This document shows positions 10,929 to 58,900 of a stretch of 64,000 nt of DNA, in pieces. The DNA lies in assembly GCA_937128505.1 (NCBI GenBank), contig CAKZMM010000162.1, positions 1 through 64,000 on the forward strand, given 5' to 3'. The notes beneath the pieces are model-generated. The model was given only the letters and a program-made list of their open reading frames with translations, was not told the DNA's origin and did not search any database. Within the stretch, counting starts at the first letter, position 1. Every line of letters starts with the position of its first letter. The translations under genes and the position numbers were made by a program. The stretch is from an uncultured Thermogutta sp. (GTDB lineage: Bacteria; Planctomycetota; Planctomycetia; Pirellulales; Thermoguttaceae).

Positions 10929-11078
10929 GGGGGAACCGACGCGGGCGGGGTAGATGTGTGCACCGCGTAATACTTTATCCGCTTGAGGGGGGAACCGACG
11001 CAGACCGGGCAGATGTCTGTTGCCATCGACATGCAGGTCACAGTACTGAGGGGGAACCAACACAAGCGGGGCAGATCT
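10929..11078. repeat. Three interspersed 29-bp repeats upstream of purM
   Basis: Copies begin at 10929, 10988 and 11050. Copies 1 and 2 share GGGGGAACCGACGC and all three share GGGGGAACC at the left and a G-rich stretch plus AGAT at the right. The intervening segments of about 30 and 33 bp are unlike each other. The spacing resembles a CRISPR array, but the copies are too diverged and no cas gene is present. The last copy ends about 57 bp before the purM start. Confidence 0.78.
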
Positions 11079-15698: not shown

Positions 15699-16598
15699 TC
15701 AAACCCCCGCAATTTCCCGGGCGACCTTTTCGAAGAAGCGAACACACTCCGCTAGTTCAGGCACGTTATTTTCCCAATTGTGCTCGTATTCGGCCGCAAA
15801 GAATGCCTGAAGTTTCTGGCGATATACTTCGCGCAGAATCGCCGGTACATCGGCCTGACCGGTCCCCCAAGGTACGTCGTGGGCTCCCTGCCTGCCGTAT
15901 TTGTTTAGGTCCTTGAAATGGAACGAGATAATCCGCCCCTCCAATTTGCGGATCGCCTCCACGGGGTTGATCCCCGAACGCATCCAGTGTCCTGTATCGG
16001 CACATGCACCGATCCGTTTGCTGCGGCCCTTACACGCTGCCAAGACCGTATCGGGATTCCAATATCGTGAAGGTTCCGGATGGTTGTGGAGGGCAACATT
16101 GATTTGATACTCCTCGACCAGCTTTTCGATCAAATCAAACGACTCGGGGGGCGGCTCGGAAACGATCGTTTCAATCCCCATGTCCTTCGCATATTCGAAA
16201 GTCCGGCGACAGACCTCCTCATTATTCGGCAGCCCCGTGACCCCGTACGCCACCAGCTTGATCCCCAAATCCGCCAAGCGGCTCTTGACTTCGCGACGGA
16301 TCTCTGCCGGCATGCCATCATTGGTGCGAACATCCCGCCGATCCGGGCTGAGCGATTGGCCGGGATACATCTCCACATATCGAAGCCCCAACAAAGCAAT
16401 CTTGTCCAGGGCCTCGAAAAACGTGAATCGGTTGAACGTATAAGCCTGGCATCCCAACCGCCAGCCGAGCTTTTCGGCTGTTGGCGCCCCATCGGTAAGC
16501 GGCGCCGCCATGGTCCACGTGTTTGCGGCCACTGCGGAAAGCGCCACTGAACTACCCGCCATTTGCACAAAACGCCGTCGGGAAATCTGCCGTCTCAT
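15699..16598 (-). CDS. Tat-exported sugar phosphate isomerase/epimerase-like protein
   Basis: The 299-residue protein belongs to the xylose isomerase-like TIM-barrel family. It starts with a twin-arginine signal (SRRRFVQMAGSSVALSAVAA). The barrel begins at LGWRLGCQAYTFNRFTFFEA and carries likely metal ligands in LRYVEMYPG, ETIVSEPP, VALHNHPEP, GACADTGHW, IISFHFKDL and AAEYEHNWEN, matching the Glu/His/Asp pattern of the family. Planctomycetes encode many secreted members, thought to act on sugars in the periplasm; the substrate here is unknown. AAGGAG lies upstream of the ATG at 16598. Confidence 0.85.
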   Translation of the reverse strand: MRRQISRRRFVQMAGSSVALSAVAANTWTMAAPLTDGAPTAEKLGWRLGCQAYTFNRFTFFEALDKIALLGLRYVEMYPGQSLSPDRRDVRTNDGMPAEIRREVKSRLADLGIKLVAYGVTGLPNNEEVCRRTFEYAKDMGIETIVSEPPPESFDLIEKLVEEYQINVALHNHPEPSRYWNPDTVLAACKGRSKRIGACADTGHWMRSGINPVEAIRKLEGRIISFHFKDLNKYGRQGAHDVPWGTGQADVPAILREVYRQKLQAFFAAEYEHNWENNVPELAECVRFFEKVAREIAGV

Positions 16599-16750
16599 CG
16601 CGCGACTCCTTCCAAGTCAATGGTTAACTACCCGCAGCGGATTGCACACGGCAATCCCACCACTACGCCAAGCAGTTGATTCGATCAGTATTTAGCCTAA
16701 CGCAATTATGCACAGGGCGAAAACCGTAGCCGACCCCCATCTCTCTACCA

Positions 16751-39390: not shown

Positions 39391-39445
39391 TTTACCGCCG
39401 TGTGCTGCCTCTGGACGGCAATTCCTCTCTAGTTAAATTTTCTCT

Positions 39446-39564
39446 CTGGTTACGGGGGTCCCCTGGTTGACCCGGTCCTCTGGTTAAGCCGGTCCTCTGG
39501 TTAGCGCGGTCCGTTGGCTAACCTGGTCGTGTGGTCAAGCCGGCCCTCTGGTCAATCCGATTAA
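39446..39564. repeat. 17-bp tandem array (7 units)
   Basis: Seven contiguous units begin at 39446, 39463, 39480, 39497, 39514, 39531 and 39548. The consensus is about CTGGTTAAGCCGGTCCT, with one to several substitutions per unit and no length change. The array starts 55 bp after the tRNA-Arg gene. Confidence 0.92.
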
Positions 39565-42910: not shown

Positions 42911-45022
42911 ATGCTAGCCCGACCTACCACGCCTGAGTTTTCATATTCTTTGCCGTATGGAGCTATCATCCACGACGAAGGGGTGCAGTTTTCAGTATTC
43001 AGCCGATCTGCCACGGCAATGCGGCTTTTGATCTACGAGAAGGTGGAGGACCCGGATCCGGTCGAGGTCATCCACTTAGATCGCGAAGATCACCGTTTTG
43101 GCGATGTTTGGAGCATCTTTCTGCCCGGGGCCAAGCCGGGGCTACTGTATCACTTTCAGGCCCATGGGCCCTTCGACCCCGACCGCGGGCACCGCTTTAA
43201 TGGCCGCGCTCGGCTTATTGACCCGTATGCAAAGGCTTTGGCGGGGGATTTTCTACCGGCACCCGATGGGATCATCCGACCCCCGAAATGTGTGGTGGTG
43301 GAAGATACGTTCGATTGGCAAGGGGATCGCCATCCTCGGCGGCCTCTAAACGAGACGATTATTTATGAGATGCATGTCGGCGGCTTTACGAAATCGCCAA
43401 CAAGCCAAGTGCGTCATCCGGGAACTTACTTGGGGCTCATCGAAAAGATCCCTTATCTTCAGAGTCTTGGTATCACCGCCGTGGAATTGATGCCGGTGCA
43501 CGAGTTCCCCATCCGCGACTGCCTGGGCCAAATGCCCGCACTCCCGAACTACTGGGGATATGACCCGATGGCTTTCTTTTCACCGCATCGGGGTTATGCC
43601 GTCAGCCGTGAACCGGGGGCCCAGGTCCGCGAGCTCAAAACCCTCATCCGTGCATTGCATCAGGCGGGTATCGAAGTGATCCTCGATGTGGTTTTCAACC
43701 ACACGTGTGAAGGGAATGAGTTGGGGCCGACCATCTCATTCAAAGGTTTGGAAAACCGCGTCTATTACATGTTGGGGGATGGGGGGCGATACTACCGCAA
43801 CTATTCCGGCTGCGGGAACACGATTAATGGCAACCATCCCATTGTGCGCGAATTGATTTTCCATTGCTTGCGATATTGGGTCCACAATTTTCACGTAGAT
43901 GGGTTCCGCTTCGATTTGGCATCGATCCTCAGTCGCGATCGCAACGGCAATCTGGTGCCCAATCCTCCGCTTTTGGAAATTATTGCGGAGGATCCCCTCC
44001 TGGCCGATACGAAAATCATTGCCGAGGCATGGGATGCCGCCGGGGCTTATCAGGTGGGTACATTCGCGAGTTTGCGGTGGCCGGATGCCGTCGTCGGGCC
44101 GCGATGGGCGGAATGGAATGGCCGATTCCGCGACGATGTCCGCCGGTTTTGGCGGGGAGATCCGGGGTTGGTCGGCAGTTTGGCCACCCGGCTGGCAGGT
44201 TCCAGCGATTTATATCAACCCGGCGGGCGGCGACCGTATCACAGCATCAATTTCGTGACCAGTCACGACGGGTTCACGCTGAACGATTTGGTCAGCTATT
44301 CGCGGAAACATAACGAGGCCAACGGCGAAGACAATCGCGATGGCGAAAACGCCAATTACAGTTGCAATTACGGAGTCGAAGGGCCCACGCGAAAGGCAAC
44401 TGTAGAGGCCGTGCGGGCCCGGCAAATCCGTAACATGCTGGCGACACTCCTTCTCAGCCAAGGGGTCCCGATGCTTTTGGCGGGGGATGAATGCCGCCGG
44501 ACGCAGCGGGGCAACAACAATGCTTATTGTCAGGATAATGAGATCTCCTGGTTCGACTGGCGGTTGGTGAAGAAACATCAGTGTTTATGGCGGTTTTGTC
44601 GCACGCTGATCCAATTCAGACGCCAGGAGCCCACCGTTCGGCAGCGTAATTTTCTTACGGGTTTGCCGCGACAACCGGGCGGGCTTCCCGATGTGGCTTG
44701 GTTCGACGCGGATGGCCAGCCGATGGACTGGCGGCCGGAACGGCGATCACTGGTGTGCTTTTTAGCGGCCTTTCCACGGGACCCCACTCAGGAGCGGCCG
44801 AATCACCACTTGTTAATGATGTTTCATCCCGGCACAGAGCCGCGGCAGTTTAAGATTCCTCCGCTAGTGCTCAAATTTCCGTGGCGGCTTTTCGTGGATA
44901 CGGCGGGCGAACCACCAGCGGATATCTACCCCCATTTAGATGGCCCTTCACCGCTGGCATCGGGTCAATTGGAGCTGGTTGCCCGGAGTTTTCGGTGCTA
45001 TGTCGCCCCGGCTATGGCCTAG
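42911..45022 (+). CDS. glgX: Glycogen debranching enzyme GlgX
   Basis: GlgX hydrolyses the alpha-1,6 branch points of limit dextrins during glycogen breakdown in the cytoplasm. The 703-residue protein has an N-terminal CBM48-like domain and a GH13 catalytic domain with the four conserved regions: DVVFNHT (I), GFRFDLASIL with the catalytic Asp (II), IIAEAWDAAG with the acid Glu (III) and FVTSHDGFTLNDLV (IV). The isoamylase-type stretches NYWGYDPMAFFSPHRGYA and NGEDNRDGENANYSCNYGVEG are present. Length matches the family (650-720). The chosen ATG at 42911 lacks an obvious ribosome binding site. No other glycogen genes are adjacent. Confidence 0.93.
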   Translation: MLARPTTPEFSYSLPYGAIIHDEGVQFSVFSRSATAMRLLIYEKVEDPDPVEVIHLDREDHRFGDVWSIFLPGAKPGLLYHFQAHGPFDPDRGHRFNGRARLIDPYAKALAGDFLPAPDGIIRPPKCVVVEDTFDWQGDRHPRRPLNETIIYEMHVGGFTKSPTSQVRHPGTYLGLIEKIPYLQSLGITAVELMPVHEFPIRDCLGQMPALPNYWGYDPMAFFSPHRGYAVSREPGAQVRELKTLIRALHQAGIEVILDVVFNHTCEGNELGPTISFKGLENRVYYMLGDGGRYYRNYSGCGNTINGNHPIVRELIFHCLRYWVHNFHVDGFRFDLASILSRDRNGNLVPNPPLLEIIAEDPLLADTKIIAEAWDAAGAYQVGTFASLRWPDAVVGPRWAEWNGRFRDDVRRFWRGDPGLVGSLATRLAGSSDLYQPGGRRPYHSINFVTSHDGFTLNDLVSYSRKHNEANGEDNRDGENANYSCNYGVEGPTRKATVEAVRARQIRNMLATLLLSQGVPMLLAGDECRRTQRGNNNAYCQDNEISWFDWRLVKKHQCLWRFCRTLIQFRRQEPTVRQRNFLTGLPRQPGGLPDVAWFDADGQPMDWRPERRSLVCFLAAFPRDPTQERPNHHLLMMFHPGTEPRQFKIPPLVLKFPWRLFVDTAGEPPADIYPHLDGPSPLASGQLELVARSFRCYVAPAMA

Positions 45023-48793: not shown

Positions 48794-49517
48794 TTTTCAC
48801 CTCTTTAAGCGAGCTGACCGGGAGAAGCGAGGTTGATGAGCTTTCGGGACCATTCGACCTGCCGAGTCGGTCAGCAACTCTTCCGATGTCACACGGGCGA
48901 TTCGGCCCCTGAGCACGGGCAACGCACTCGGAATTAGCCTTTCACTCAGGTTGAGTGACTTGGGTGGCAAAGCATGGGCCAATCCGCAGGCGGATAGACA
49001 AAGACGGGAGCTAAAACGTAACTAACTACAGCTAAGAGACTTACGTGTTTGGAAATTCTTGCCAACCGACCTCGATGTTGCCTTTTTGCCAAGCCATGTT
49101 GCCGAAAAGCTTTCTTGGCAAACCGGCGCTGATTTCGCCCCTGGTCGCTGTGGGGCGGGGACCATGCGCCCAAGAGCACCAACGCACGAAGCTGGGGGTA
49201 TTCCCACTACGTAGGCGCAAAAGCGGCGTGAGGAGGTTAGGGACTTTGCGGCCCGCCGGGCCCCAGCAAGAGTTCGCCGAACAAACGCAAGGCGGGTGCG
49301 CGTGTCGGGGGCATGATGCCTGAGGAGAAAATCTTCTTTGAAAACAGGGGGAAACTCAGCGTTATTTTCGGGCCGGGGAATCCGGGGGGTGCGGCAGCAC
49401 TCGCTTCAAAAGATCATACCTCCCATGGGAGGAATTCCGTGCCCGCTGTTCTAGACGCCTGTATAGTATAAGGATCATAACTCCCATGCGTGGAATTCCG
49501 TGCGTAGTCTGGCATCC
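48794..49517. other. Intergenic region within the leftward polysaccharide arm
   Basis: About 720 bp, no gene recognised. The right end holds two units of the 60-bp array that continues into the O-antigen ligase-like gene. The large gap means the sugar transferase may have its own promoter. Confidence 0.5.
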
Positions 49518-49680
49518 TTAACCGCTTTTGCCAGATCGTACCTCCCGTGCGAGGAGTTCCGCATCGGTCACTGCGGGGGCGGGAAGATTTAAGCATCCCA
49601 CTTTTGCCGCGGGGAGTTCCGATAAGGGCCTTAACTGAGGGGATGCGTTATGAGATCCTACCTCTGCTGCGAGGAGTTCG
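49412..49680. repeat. 60-61 bp periodic array with palindromic cores (5 units)
   Basis: Related 28-bp cores start at 49412, 49473, 49534, 49593 and 49653 (typical strings GATCATACCTCCC and GAGGAGTTCCG). The middle is self-complementary, perfectly so in the first unit (CTCCCATGGGAG). The intervening ~32-bp segments differ from each other. Three units encode the C-terminus of the leftward O-antigen ligase-like protein and two lie beyond its stop codon. The pattern recalls a CRISPR array but degenerates too much and has no cas genes. Confidence 0.82.
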
Positions 49681-51101
49681 GCGGTATGGGACCGCTGGGC
49701 AAGAGAGTTTTTGGCCGCACTTTTGTGGGCGTGTTGCTCGGCGGGTTGAGAGGGTGGCTCATGCGGCCCGGGGAGACGAAGACCGGCGAAAAAGAAGACG
49801 ACCATGTTGAGCATCGGTATTAGCGCTACATCGTGGAATAGACCATTGACGAGATAACTTACGGCGGCTGCCCCCTGAAGCAGAGCAATCTGCTGAACCC
49901 AACTCGGCTGCCGGTAGCGCAATTGATCAATGGTGCGCTTAAGCCATCCGACAAGCACCGCCAGCCAAAGCAGGCTTCCCACGAGTCCCAATTCGGCTAA
50001 AAACCGTAAGAAGAGGTTGTGTTGCGTCAGGCCTTTGGTTCGCTCCAGCGGCAGACCATGCGAACGATCCGCAAGATATGGGGTTTTGACATGATCGTAA
50101 CGACCGAACCCACAGCCAAGAAGGGGATGATCTTTGAAGATCAGCCATGCAGACGCGGCAAGCAGCGGCCGTAGGGCGATGGAATCTTCCGCCGCTCCTG
50201 CCGTCAGATCGCGGTCGCGTTTGAGTCGCACAAGTCGCTCCCGGTAAAACCAGCCACCCACGATCGTCAAGGCTAAAAGAAAGGTCACTGCGGGCCATCG
50301 CCATCGCCGCGGCAACGCCCAGCCGAAAATAGCGAGGGTATTGACTGCCGTACTTAGCCAGACGCTGCGCGTGAGGGTCAGCACATTACCAATCCCAATG
50401 GTCGCAGCAGCCAGCAGGGCTCCCCACCGCAACCTAGGCCATTGGCGCAGACCCAGGATAAGGGCGGCCACCATTCCAAGACCGCTTAGAAGGCCAGAAC
50501 CGATTGGATTAAGCAAAGGTCCTCGCGCACGGCCTAAAAACTCGGTGTATTCCGATTCCATAATATAGCGGGGGAAAACAAGCGTTTTGGCCGCGAATAC
50601 CTCGGCAACAGCGGTCAGACTCAAGTAGAGCCCAAAGGCAATCATAGCCCCCAGGAGCCAGCCTCCGGAGGTCGGGTCAAGCTTCACATCTCGTGCCACC
50701 AGATAGATTCCCAGCGGCATGAGCCAAAAAAAGAGCAGTTGGGAAAGCGGCTCCGGAGCACCCACCACGGGCCGGGCTGCCGGATCGATTAACCGGTAAT
50801 AACCCACGCTTAAGGCAATGAAAACCACAAAGCCGATGAGGAGTCGGTCGGTCCAATCCCAGGAACGGCTCCCGCGGCTGCGGAGCCCTCGCTGCCAGAG
50901 CCAATAGGCAAGAAGAATTCCCCAGAGCACCCGATCGATTGTAATGGGGACCATCCCGGTCTGGATCCGGAAGAAAGGATGTCCGAAACAACAGCCGGCC
51001 AAAAGCACAAGGAGACAGCCGGCAAGCAAGCCCCCCCAACGCAAGACAAGAGCAAGCCAGACTACTCCGGTAATGATCCCTATAACGAGAAAAAATTCCA
51101 T
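49518..51101 (-). CDS. O-antigen ligase/polymerase-like membrane protein
   Basis: The 527-residue protein has about 11-12 hydrophobic segments and the O-antigen ligase/Wzy features: a large periplasmic loop with SAWLIFKDHPLLGCGFGRYD, then LTQHNLFLRFLAELGLVGSL. It would polymerise or ligate polysaccharide repeat units at the periplasmic face. The C-terminal about 60 residues are not membrane-like and consist of a 20-residue repeat (ELLAAEVGS / ELPAAKVGC / ELLAREVRS) encoded by the 60-bp array, a tail I have not seen in the family. No ribosome binding site is apparent at the ATG (51101). It lies about 300 bp downstream of the Wzz-like gene. Confidence 0.85.
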   Translation of the reverse strand: MEFFLVIGIITGVVWLALVLRWGGLLAGCLLVLLAGCCFGHPFFRIQTGMVPITIDRVLWGILLAYWLWQRGLRSRGSRSWDWTDRLLIGFVVFIALSVGYYRLIDPAARPVVGAPEPLSQLLFFWLMPLGIYLVARDVKLDPTSGGWLLGAMIAFGLYLSLTAVAEVFAAKTLVFPRYIMESEYTEFLGRARGPLLNPIGSGLLSGLGMVAALILGLRQWPRLRWGALLAAATIGIGNVLTLTRSVWLSTAVNTLAIFGWALPRRWRWPAVTFLLALTIVGGWFYRERLVRLKRDRDLTAGAAEDSIALRPLLAASAWLIFKDHPLLGCGFGRYDHVKTPYLADRSHGLPLERTKGLTQHNLFLRFLAELGLVGSLLWLAVLVGWLKRTIDQLRYRQPSWVQQIALLQGAAAVSYLVNGLFHDVALIPMLNMVVFFFAGLRLPGPHEPPSQPAEQHAHKSAAKNSLAQRSHTAELLAAEVGSHNASPQLRPLSELPAAKVGCLNLPAPAVTDAELLAREVRSGKSG

Positions 51102-53074: not shown

Positions 53075-54177
53075 AAGGCCTCTCATTGGGTTTGACCATG
53101 CTTGGGTGATTTCCGCTGATTTCGCCGTAACGATCAGGACATGCAGGTCGGCTCGGCTAAGGCGACTTCGTGCTTCGCTTTAAGCGTCCCAGCTTTGACC
53201 GCTAGACGCCTGTTCCGGACCCGCTTGACGAATGAGGGGGAGCAAACCGAATGCCGCGATCCGGCCGCCAGCATGCTCCGCGATCTTTTTCCCAGGAAAT
53301 GACGGAAAAAAGTGGGCATTTTTATCCCGGATGATCCCGGGCAAGGCCGCCGCATGCTTCACCGGTGTTCGAAGATGACGGCCGAGTGTTGCCGAAAGTC
53401 AACGTGCTGTTGAACTGTGAGGACGAGGGGCGTCGGGTTGAGGAAATGATACGCGTTGATGTGAATGATCAACGCATCTTTGTGGTTGGTGCCTGCGGCG
53501 GCAAAAGGGTGTCGTTTCCGCGAAATGCCCGGTGGAATTGCTTGGTGGGTCCAGCAAACGTGTTGCGTTTAACAAGACGGACGATGCGTGCTCGGTTCAA
53601 CTGAGAAGAGAGCTTGGTTTGCTTAGCGGCAAAATTAACTTTTGTCAGGGAAACAAGCGAAAAATCGTCAATTTCGCTTGGCAGAGGGCTTTATATGACG
53701 CAAAGTTTCAAGGAAAGAACCAACGTTCGCCAAGTTTGCGCGATGCGAGTTTCCTTAAGGGTTCGAGTTTGTTTCGGTGCCATTGGGGGACTGCCCCACG
53801 GTGGATCGCACGGGCTTCGGAAATTTTCCGGCAGCCTGTTGGCGAAAATTAAGAAGGCAGCCGGCAGCGTACTCCAGAAGCCGGGCGTATCCCTTGTGTT
53901 TGAAGCATTGTACTGAGTGGTTGAAGCATCGTACCCAGTGGTCGAAGCATCCTCTTGAGTGGTTGAAGCGTCGTACCGAGTGGTTGATGGGTTTTTACCG
54001 TCGGCGCGAAAGGGCGTTGGCAACCTCACGCGATGGGAAACGTTTTTTGGGCATTAAGACCCAGCCTCTGAGTCACATGAGCTACAACCTCAAAGGCTTC
54101 GGCATCAAGTGCTGAGAAAGAAGCAAGATTTAACGCGTGAACTGCCCTTTTGGTCGAGGGAGGGAGATTGAATTTGC
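53075..54177. other. Divergent control region of the polysaccharide locus
   Basis: About 1.1 kb separating the leftward wzz-like and rightward acetyltransferase genes; it should hold both promoters. It contains the 21-bp array listed next. No gene recognised. Confidence 0.5.
53900..54004. repeat. 21-bp tandem array (4 full units plus a decayed fifth)
   Basis: Units begin at 53900, 53921, 53942, 53963 and 53984. The common core is TTGAAGCATCGTAC followed by GAGTGG. Unit length is constant. The array sits about 170 bp upstream of the rightward acetyltransferase gene. Confidence 0.92.
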
Positions 54178-55932
54178 ATGACTCCCGTGCAGATCGAAAA
54201 TCCTGCCGAGGTGCCAGATACCGCAAGCCGAACCTCTCACGAGGGGGCGGATTCTGTCTCCCTTGAGGTGCGTTGCTTTACCCGGTGGGAGGACCTTTAT
54301 CCTTACGCCAAGATTTGGGATGAACTTGCGGGGGACAATCCGTTCCGGCGGTGGTTTTGGATGGAGCGCTGGTGGGCGTATTATGGGGAGCGAACTTTCT
54401 CTGAAATACGGCACAGAAATTCTTCGAGTACCACGCTTCATGCGTCTTCAGGTACCACGCTTCGAGTTTCTTCGGGCACCAATCTCCAAACTTCTGGTGA
54501 GAGAATCCAAACCTCTCAAACACCCTTGAGGCAAGTGCCGACGCCCGATCGCTGCCCCACTTCCCGGGATGCAATCGCCGGTCATTCGCTTTCTTCTCTC
54601 CCGGCTGGTGGTGAGGGGTCCAAATCATACGCTTCGCAGGGCCGACCAATTTATTGCGGTTCGCCTTGTACGTTATCTCTCCCGGAGGAGCCGGCATCTT
54701 ACCTTCCAGGCCAACAAGGAGGGGTAGAGTTTCACAGTTTGCCTGCGGAGAACTCACGGTTTTCGCTTGAGCCACTTTCCCTTAACCTAACGAAGGAGCT
54801 CGGCTTAGCCCCATCGGGCAAGCGGCTTAAGCACGCCGCGTTTGGCCGGCTACCTGATCGGGGCCTTTTTGTACTGGGGGTCTTTTCACGGGGGGAGCTT
54901 GTCGGAATTCTTCCTTGGTATTGGGAGCGCTCGGCAATTTGGGGGCGCGTGATTCGCTTTCTGGGAAGCGGCGAGGTGTGCTCGGACTATCTCGGCCTTA
55001 TGTGCCGACCCGGTTGGGAGCAGCCGATCGTCGACCGACTCGTTCGTTGGCTGGACGAAGTCGCTTGTGCGGGAAAACGGGGCCTTTACGGCGGAACGAC
55101 CTCGTGGGACGATGCGGCTTGCCGGTGGGATCTCATCGATCTGGAGCAACTCGCCGTGGAAGACGCGTATACCTGGGCTTTGATTCGGGGTCTTGCCGAC
55201 GCGGGGCACTTGGTCCACCAGCGAGCGGCCGACGCCTGTTGGAGGTTATATCTGCCCGACTGTTGGGAGGATTATCTCAAAAGTCTTTCGAAGAATACGC
55301 GGCGTCAACTGCGAAAATTGGAGCGGTTTGCCGAGTCGGGACGCTTCCGGTGCTGGGGGGTCAGGATGCCGGAAGAAACCCATCGCTATTTCGATCTGCT
55401 GATGGAACTTCACCAGCGCCGCCAGCATTCGCTCGGTAACCCGGGCTCGTTCGCCTCGGCTCGTTTTACGCAGTTTCATCGGGATATCGCATCGCGATGG
55501 GTCGCGGAGCGACGCGCATACCTTTGCTTCGTAGATATCGACGGAGTACCCGTGGCCGCCGAGTACGGCTTTCGTGTTGGCAAAGCCTGTTTTCTCTACC
55601 TCGCAGGAATGGAGCCGAGTTACCTGGAATATTCCCCGGGAAAGTTGAAGCATGTCGTTTTGCTCAAGGAAGCCATTAAGAGTGGAATCGCTGTGTTCGA
55701 TTTCTTGCGAGGGGACGAAACATACAAGGCGCAACTCGGCGGCCAAGCCGTGCCAATGAGGAAGGTGCGGATTGCCGCCAAGCGATTCTGGCCGCGGCTA
55801 AAACACGTGGTTTGGGTTTCGTGTTGGAATCTGAAGCAACATCTGAAACCAAGGCGATTGCCACCTGCGAACCAGCATGGAAGACACCCGGTTCCGAAAT
55901 CCGACTTTCCACCGCTTGCGGAGGAGCCTTAA
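54178..55932 (+). CDS. CelD/FemAB-like acetyltransferase with low-complexity insert
   Basis: The 584-residue protein is a GNAT-fold acetyltransferase of the CelD/FemAB-like type found in exopolysaccharide loci. The start (WDELAGDNPFRRWFWMERWW) and the continuation from about residue 222 (LFVLGVFSRGELVGILPWYW, RVIRFLGSGEVCSDYLGLMC, then KNTRRQLRKLERFAESG and VPVAAEYGFRVGKACFLYLA) match the family. Between them, about residues 70-220 form a Ser/Thr/Pro-rich insert with no family counterpart, which includes three in-frame 24-bp repeats. GGGAGGGAG lies upstream of the ATG. It is the first gene of the rightward arm and ends two bases before the deacetylase start. Confidence 0.85.
   Translation: MTPVQIENPAEVPDTASRTSHEGADSVSLEVRCFTRWEDLYPYAKIWDELAGDNPFRRWFWMERWWAYYGERTFSEIRHRNSSSTTLHASSGTTLRVSSGTNLQTSGERIQTSQTPLRQVPTPDRCPTSRDAIAGHSLSSLPAGGEGSKSYASQGRPIYCGSPCTLSLPEEPASYLPGQQGGVEFHSLPAENSRFSLEPLSLNLTKELGLAPSGKRLKHAAFGRLPDRGLFVLGVFSRGELVGILPWYWERSAIWGRVIRFLGSGEVCSDYLGLMCRPGWEQPIVDRLVRWLDEVACAGKRGLYGGTTSWDDAACRWDLIDLEQLAVEDAYTWALIRGLADAGHLVHQRAADACWRLYLPDCWEDYLKSLSKNTRRQLRKLERFAESGRFRCWGVRMPEETHRYFDLLMELHQRRQHSLGNPGSFASARFTQFHRDIASRWVAERRAYLCFVDIDGVPVAAEYGFRVGKACFLYLAGMEPSYLEYSPGKLKHVVLLKEAIKSGIAVFDFLRGDETYKAQLGGQAVPMRKVRIAAKRFWPRLKHVVWVSCWNLKQHLKPRRLPPANQHGRHPVPKSDFPPLAEEP
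54421..54492 (+). repeat. In-frame 24-bp tandem array (3 units) inside the acetyltransferase gene
   Basis: Units 54421-54444, 54445-54468 and 54469-54492 each start with TCTTC and contain ACCACGCTTC or ACCAATCTCC. They encode repeats of the type Ser-Ser-x-Thr-Thr/Asn-Leu-x-x at residues 82-105, inside the non-family insert. Confidence 0.85.
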
Positions 55933-58624: not shown

Positions 58625-58660
58625 GAATCCCTCCGCGGATGGAATTGCGGCACAACGGTT

Positions 58661-58900
58661 CAGAAGCGGCGCGATAGATTCAGAGGCGGCGGGACAGATT
58701 CAGAAGCATCGCAATAGATTTGGAAGTAACCGAATAGATTCAAAAGCCACGGGACAGATTTAGACGTAGCAGGATAACTCCGCAAGCAGCGGGACAAATT
58801 CAGGAGGAGCGGGATAAATTCAAAAGCACGAGGATAAATTTAGGACTAAGAGCATGAATTTAGGACCAAGAGGATAAGTTCAGAAGCAGCGGGATCAATA
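58661..58900. repeat. 20-bp tandem array (12 units)
   Basis: Twelve contiguous units start at 58661 and every 20 bp to 58881, with no length change. The consensus is about CAGAAGCAGCGGGATAGATT. Units differ by a few to about eight substitutions. The array fills most of the 332-bp gap between the flippase and glycosyltransferase genes, beginning 36 bp after a stop codon and ending 56 bp before a start codon. There are no spacers, so it is not a CRISPR. Confidence 0.97.

Follow-up and report, generated by a model that had tools for sequence, protein, structure and literature searches.

Scattered arrays of type I-E dimensions, each with its own degenerate repeat, in the genome of an uncultured Thermogutta sp.

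Introduction

The DNA under study is a stretch of 64,000 nt (the window) of contig C162 (CAKZMM010000162.1), which belongs to the genome of an uncultured Thermogutta sp. assembled in 198 contigs and 5.58 Mb. At the 3' end of a gene for an O-antigen ligase-like protein in this window, five related blocks of sequence recur about every 60 bp, and part of the series is read as protein. A first-pass annotation of the sequence called the pattern CRISPR-like. The locus raises the question of whether such a series is a repeat of the protein, a CRISPR array or something else, and how it came to lie at the end of a gene. By itself the window locus tells little; it became interpretable through a survey of the wider genome.

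Results

Layout of the array in the window

Five related cores of 28 nt were confirmed, starting at 49412, 49473, 49534, 49594 and 49654. Their spacing, given as 60-61 bp in the first-pass annotation, measured 61, 61, 60 and 60 bp, which leaves spacers of 33, 33, 32 and 32 nt.

49412..49439, minus strand, unit 1, 28-nt repeat, beyond the ligase stop
49440..49472, no strand, spacer, 33 nt
49473..49500, minus strand, unit 2, repeat, beyond the ligase stop
49501..49533, no strand, spacer, 33 nt, contains the ligase stop codon
49534..49561, minus strand, unit 3, repeat, within the ligase ORF
49562..49593, no strand, spacer, 32 nt
49594..49621, minus strand, unit 4, repeat, the most diverged, within the ligase ORF
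49622..49653, no strand, spacer, 32 nt
49654..49681, minus strand, unit 5, repeat, within the ligase ORF

A block search without a preset size also returned a conserved block of 28 nt, and pairwise identity was 0.74 inside this block versus 0.25 outside. The intervening segments had been described as unlike each other, and the spacers were indeed mutually no more similar than random segments. Chained 28-nt similarity reached 66 of 84 in the array versus 45-46 in simulations, where the best of each of six first-order Markov simulations of the window was taken.

Other proposed properties of the cores fared less well. Self-complementarity was found in unit 1, but the palindrome was not well kept in the other units. 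When the array was folded as RNA, neither strand did better than its shuffles (z -0.96 and +0.03), and the sole Rfam match in the window was a tRNA. A search for copies of the array elsewhere, in the own genome and 59 relatives, returned only matches of chance size. No cas genes were found beside the array, where the neighbours were the ligase, a sugar transferase and a Wzz-like protein.

The coding tail of the ligase

The gene that the array enters is the following.

49518..51101, minus strand, Wzy_C O-antigen ligase-like gene, 527 aa (Pfam PF04932, E 1.5e-18)

As first described, units 3, 4 and 5 are read within this ORF and units 1 and 2 lie past its stop, which falls between units 3 and 2. 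The spacing of 60 bp had been offered as the reason for in-frame read-through. This holds for the two spacings inside the ORF, which keep the reading frame across units 3-5 because both equal 60, but the other two are 61.

Three units in frame, in a genome that abounds in short-period arrays, could be taken for an ordinary protein repeat or a minisatellite at the C-terminus of the ligase. Two units lie beyond the stop, however, and the spacers are unrelated, with the low identity outside the 28-nt block given above. Similarity of the ligase to most homologues ceases near residues 441-450, and the array makes up the last residues. We looked for the tail in orthologues, as had been proposed, at 21 ligase homologue loci (19 of the 28 non-own matches of one search, and two from another), and it was present in none of them. 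The protein-repeat reading of the tail was rejected on this result. The two named ligase homologue records came from Pirellulales and Planctomycetaceae metagenome assemblies, and no ligase match was found in the congeners G001 or G002. Together with the excess of 61-bp arrays across the sampled genome and the behaviour of other arrays toward open frames, both described below, these observations make a protein repeat or minisatellite scarcely credible. The coding tail looks like a by-product, most plausibly the accidental result of an array lying at a gene end.

Census of 61-bp arrays in the genome

In 1,603,300 bases of the own genome (29%; 1.60 of 5.58 Mb), we searched for core and spacer arrays with three or more units, taking each period between 40 and 110 bp in turn (±1). 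The number of rows peaked only at 60-62, where periods 60, 61 and 62 gave overlapping sets of 22, 22 and 18 rows; the 68 other periods gave 0-2 rows each. The 22 rows at 61 consisted of 20 distinct non-canonical arrays, one of which was counted twice, and the canonical array of the genome. Counting of 28-mer pairs by lag gave the same picture: 29 pairs at 60 and 87 at 61, with 6, 5, 8 and 6 pairs at 58, 59, 62 and 63.

A search with slightly wider limits yielded 30 candidates. Six of these, short-period repeats with like spacers, were discarded, as were a duplicate that overlapped another candidate and the canonical array itself. Twenty-two non-canonical arrays of the same design with at least three units were kept, the window array included. 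The period census used narrower limits (60-62, higher threshold), and its rows are not the same set as these 22 arrays.

The 22 arrays contain 90 units in all, 3-7 each. Their spacings were 61 bp in 49 cases, 60 in 10, 62 in 6 and 59 in 3, and 49 of the 68 spacers were 33 nt long, with all of them within 31-34 nt. Block length and hairpins were analyzed in 13 arrays. The conserved block, searched without a preset size, had a median length of 28 nt (range 24-33) with background identity outside it. Repeat hairpins were mostly no better than those of shuffles, with only one of the 13 arrays below 0.05.

Twelve of the 22 arrays lie clear of any open frame of 100 codons, and one reaches 7 bp into such a frame. 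Another seven overlap unrecognised frames of 114-185 codons, none of which carries a Pfam domain, again contrary to what a protein repeat would lead one to expect. None of the 22 arrays was seen to enter a recognised protein other than the ligase. The window holds a second array, with spacings of 59 and 62, which also overlaps an unrecognised opposite-strand frame of 244 codons:

10929..10956, plus strand, unit 1
10988..11015, plus strand, unit 2
11050..11077, plus strand, unit 3, just before purM (coding from about 11135)

The number of such arrays in the whole genome is uncertain. The long contiguous sample, which includes the window, held three arrays in 464 kb, corresponding to about 36 per genome, and the whole sample, which is enriched in contig starts, corresponds to about 77. 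Three arrays were found inside 5 kb of one contig. Nine of the 22 lie within 600 bp of a contig end, versus 4.2% of the scanned bases (P 1.2e-7). Strain variation would explain this enrichment, and assembly trouble at repeats equally would. The repeat of the most homogeneous array (L104:16780, at the end of G000:C6) is also found as bases 1-28 of contig C169, indicating that the assembly broke at that array.

The type I-E system of the genome

A complete type I-E operon was found on contig C102, in which Cas3, Cse1, Cse2, Cas6e, Cas7, Cas5e, Cas1e and Cas2e were recognised with NCBIfam (E 3.7e-44 for Cse1 and 1.1e-92 for Cas1e). The canonical array beside it has the repeat GTTCTCCCTGCACACGCAGGGATGATCC and spacings of 61 and 61. 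At up to three mismatches this repeat occurred in only three copies genome-wide, all beside cas.

The scattered arrays agree with type I-E arrays such as that on C102 in a 28-nt repeat, mostly 33-nt unlike spacers, a period of 61 and occasionally 60 or 62, and a repeat motif that is I-E-like. On these figures they match the resident I-E system in period and in the lengths of repeat and spacer, and their type I-E dimensions are well supported. Unlike type I-E arrays, they are short (3-7 units), showed no leader, and have repeats that agree to 57-96% inside an array and change from one array to another. Only one of the 22 was seen close to cas genes: a diverged 61-bp array at L137:10250-10399, about 0.8 kb upstream of cas3, at the operon end opposite the canonical array.

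The CRISPR-like reading of the window array was thus strengthened by its type I-E dimensions, by the complete I-E system and by 21 further non-canonical arrays in the 29% of the genome examined. Near-identical repeats, a trait of type I-E arrays, are not seen in the window array, whose repeats average 74% identity. The two marks of a decayed CRISPR named in the first-pass annotation, spacers matching phages and nearby cas genes, were both lacking, the cas operon being on another contig.

Some further features of the CRISPR loci were observed. In the own genome (L137:234-1055) cas2 is separated from the array by a gene of about 275 aa, and G002 has one in the same position (L140:10822-11655). 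The gene looks exonuclease (DnaQ)-like by eye, and the own copy matched no NCBIfam family. At L138:12991-13770 (G000:C122) is a second Cas1, closest to the Cas4g/Cas1g, general Cas1 and I-D models, and at L138:16102-16287 of the same contig are three copies of a 40-nt repeat spaced by 74 and 72 bp. For this second CRISPR system, whose period is about 73 bp, the census gave no stray arrays, the one row at that period being its own array.

Relations among the repeats

The consensus differs from array to array. In global alignment its identity to the canonical repeat was 54-75%, where random genomic 28-mers had a mean of 53% and a 99th percentile of 68%. Individually, 7 of the 22 arrays resembled the canonical repeat at p<0.05, and jointly the resemblance was clear (Fisher P 1e-9). 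In an earlier local-alignment test of 13 arrays, six were below p 0.004. The p value of the window repeat was 0.003 in local and 0.016 in global alignment.

A motif common to the 22 consensus repeats reached 13.9 bits when orientation was free, small shifts were allowed and equal numbers of starts were used, and the nulls reached at most 8.55 bits in 60 GC-matched genomic sets and 8.56 bits in 60 shuffled sets. The first run had given 14.0 bits, with nulls of fewer starts. The motif consensus is similar to I-E repeats, the comparison being with the E. coli repeat. In dimension and motif, then, the scattered arrays are very probably CRISPR arrays.

A DNA- or RNA-binding protein with binding sites at regular intervals might also account for GC-rich, partly palindromic cores at a fixed spacing, and the location of 12 of the 22 arrays outside any open frame of 100 codons would suit such sites. 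A single protein, however, would be expected to have the same consensus at every locus, and the consensus is array-specific; coincidence would have to explain both the 28/33 dimensions and why the repeats resemble the canonical one, and RNA folding was unremarkable. We regard this explanation as very improbable.

The within-array identity over the 22 arrays ranged from 57% to 96%. In two homogeneous cases, the units of L104:16780 had an identity of 0.96 with each other and 0.68 with the canonical repeat, and those of L092 had 0.93 and 0.57. Units closer to each other than to the canonical repeat argue against the independent decay of one repeat. This bears on a real rival among the possible origins: that many I-E arrays, once canonical, were scattered by rearrangement and decayed, their repeats diverging at every location, and that the present arrays are what is left of them. 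Such remains would explain the same dimensions and the common I-E motif, the divergence of most repeats, and flanks without leaders. In a large survey (PMC12814883), arrays far from cas also had more diverse repeats and tended to differ in repeat from those near cas. Dispersal and decay of old arrays would nevertheless leave units nearer to the canonical repeat than to each other, and the opposite was seen in L104:16780 and L092; it also has to accommodate the presence of the canonical repeat in no more than three copies, all beside cas. We consider it unlikely, while giving it more weight than any other rival.

In the 12 arrays with at least four units, adjacent units were more alike than distant ones by 0.08, a difference reached in 0 of 2000 shuffles. 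This fits stepwise addition of units, as supporting evidence only, because detection favours arrays with similar neighbours.

Relatives

Cas1e was over the family cut-off in both congeners, G001 and G002, and the operon of G002 was seen in its ORF listing. Across the taxonomic family, 16 of 119 genomes had Cas1e above the cut-off. No non-canonical array of at least four units was found in the congener DNA sampled. In 213,043 bases of G001, we found a canonical 15-unit array (L194) with 98% identical repeats and two non-canonical arrays of three units, both with their own cores:

L188:16182-16329, spacings 60 and 60, within-array identity 0.81, several open frames overlap
L190:17204-17353, spacings 61 and 61, within-array identity 0.69

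Two arrays were found versus 1.4 to 2.9 expected, a range whose two ends use the own-genome rates, one from the long contiguous sample and the other from all the bases scanned; G001 is therefore not different from the own genome. In 424,521 bases of G002 no such array of at least three units was found, versus 2.7 to 5.8 expected by the same rates. G041, a family member without Cas1e over the cut-off, had no such array in 200,000 bases. The gene beside the L157 array has a homologue in the sampled G002 DNA, with no array there; only one flank was matched, so this locus is not a proven empty site.

The own repeat of each array, and the freshly homogeneous look of the youngest one, would also be seen if orphan arrays had been acquired horizontally from other I-E systems with different repeats. 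The repeats of the two most homogeneous arrays were, however, found in the own genome only (396 and 119 genomes searched), and no cas gene was seen by eye among the ORFs where three arrays lie within 5 kb. Horizontal acquisition is therefore an improbable source of the arrays.

Spacers and leaders

The proposed search of spacers against phages and plasmids covered the window array, the L104:16780 array and the canonical array. In the collections searched, no match to phages was found, and one to plasmids was at chance level; even the canonical array spacers gave only weak matches to phages. Exact 18-base pieces of three spacers matched two viral contigs, the better of which agreed in 22 of 33 bases. 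Against the sampled DNA of the own genome and its relatives, spacers gave 32 matches versus 28 for reversed spacers. The best was that of the second window spacer, with 20 of 21 bases in G002 (E 0.002), which was slightly better than the best control (0.01) and unconvincing.

A leader-like flank was nominally significant in one of 43 testable flanks (60 shuffles each). The flanks of the window array compared with the canonical leader at p 0.90 and 0.82.

Other repeats and rearrangements

Degenerate short-period arrays were also noticed in the window, at 39427-39562 (17 bp), 53896-54000 (21 bp), 54421-54492 (24 bp) and 58658-58899 (20 bp). With limits of at least 2.9 copies and a period of 10 or more, TRF reported 17 short-period arrays in 464 kb of the own genome, some of them coding-looking, and none in the samples of G002 and G041 (200 kb each). 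This abundance is a separate matter. A long array of a 48-bp repeat at L048:10325-11751 (G000:C84) looked coding by eye. The window frames 15702-16616 and 43415-45019 are 27 kb apart, and their homologues in G002 are about 0.6 kb apart (C11:78799-81758), which suggests an insertion or rearrangement.

Discussion

Of the origins considered, we favour the founding of arrays at non-canonical sites, because the repeat differs from one array to the next and the homogeneity of some arrays marks them as recent. The two arrays of G001, a second genome with Cas1e, also speak for this origin and roughly make up for the lost contrast with that congener. It is rather likely that Cas1e-Cas2e founded the arrays at such sites, and that they were later extended and then decayed. 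The own Cas1e-Cas2e integrase would insert a spacer at a chromosomal site resembling the canonical repeat, and the insertion would duplicate 28 bp there. If the new site was then used again, a short array with a repeat of its own locus would result. One such array would have been founded at the 3' end of the O-antigen ligase gene and would have decayed since, and its two 60-bp periods would let the ligase frame run through three units before the stop. The window array is probably inert now, and so, probably, are the others. Both the role of Cas1e-Cas2e as the maker and an ectopic start, rather than dispersed canonical arrays, are what we infer from these patterns.

Several observations speak against founding by the integrase. 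G002 has the operon and no such array was found in its sampled DNA, a contrast that is weakened by the arrays of G001. Flanks are not leader-like, there is no convincing spacer match, individual resemblance to the canonical repeat is weak, and repeat hairpins mostly do not exceed those of shuffles. Since this genome is rich in short-period arrays, a general tendency to keep repeats may contribute as well.

Nivala, Shipman and Church reportedly described in 2018 how neo-CRISPR loci arise in E. coli from non-canonical spacer integration. The arrays here are similar to those loci in lying outside the canonical array and in being attributed to the I-E integrase, and the window array shares with them a locus-specific repeat that resembles the canonical one. 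In E. coli it was reportedly overexpressed Cas1-Cas2 that integrated outside the array (Nivala 2018, via PMC11788318), whereas it is a natural genome that holds the scattered arrays described here, which are numerous, have several spacers each and are decayed.

Orphan or isolated CRISPR arrays are well known (Shmakov et al. 2020, via PMC8891609 and PMC8616872). The scattered arrays are similar to them in being CRISPR-like and away from cas genes; they differ from orphan arrays in number, 22 having been found in 29% of a single genome, and in that every one carries a degenerate repeat of its own. Among the titles and abstract openings returned by literature searches, which covered open-access papers, we found no description of genome-wide sets of such arrays. 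What appears to be new here, with no precedent among those papers, is the presence of many array-specific, degenerate I-E arrays in one natural genome.

Whether off-target integration leaves lasting and growing arrays in nature bears on the origin of orphan arrays and on repeat diversity. A genome in which dozens of loci have decayed to differing degrees, together with a congener that has a few, makes this question testable. The ligase tail also illustrates that degenerate arrays can pose as coding repeats.

More generally, the type I-E integrase of the genus may habitually found arrays at repeat-like sites, which would keep acquiring spacers with drifting repeats; we put this forward tentatively, as a possibility we would not yet count on. 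If true, several dozen self-started CRISPR arrays would be recorded in scattered form across the genome. Some of them would still be growing and variable between strains, many would have decayed, and occasionally one would have been annexed into coding sequence, as in the ligase.
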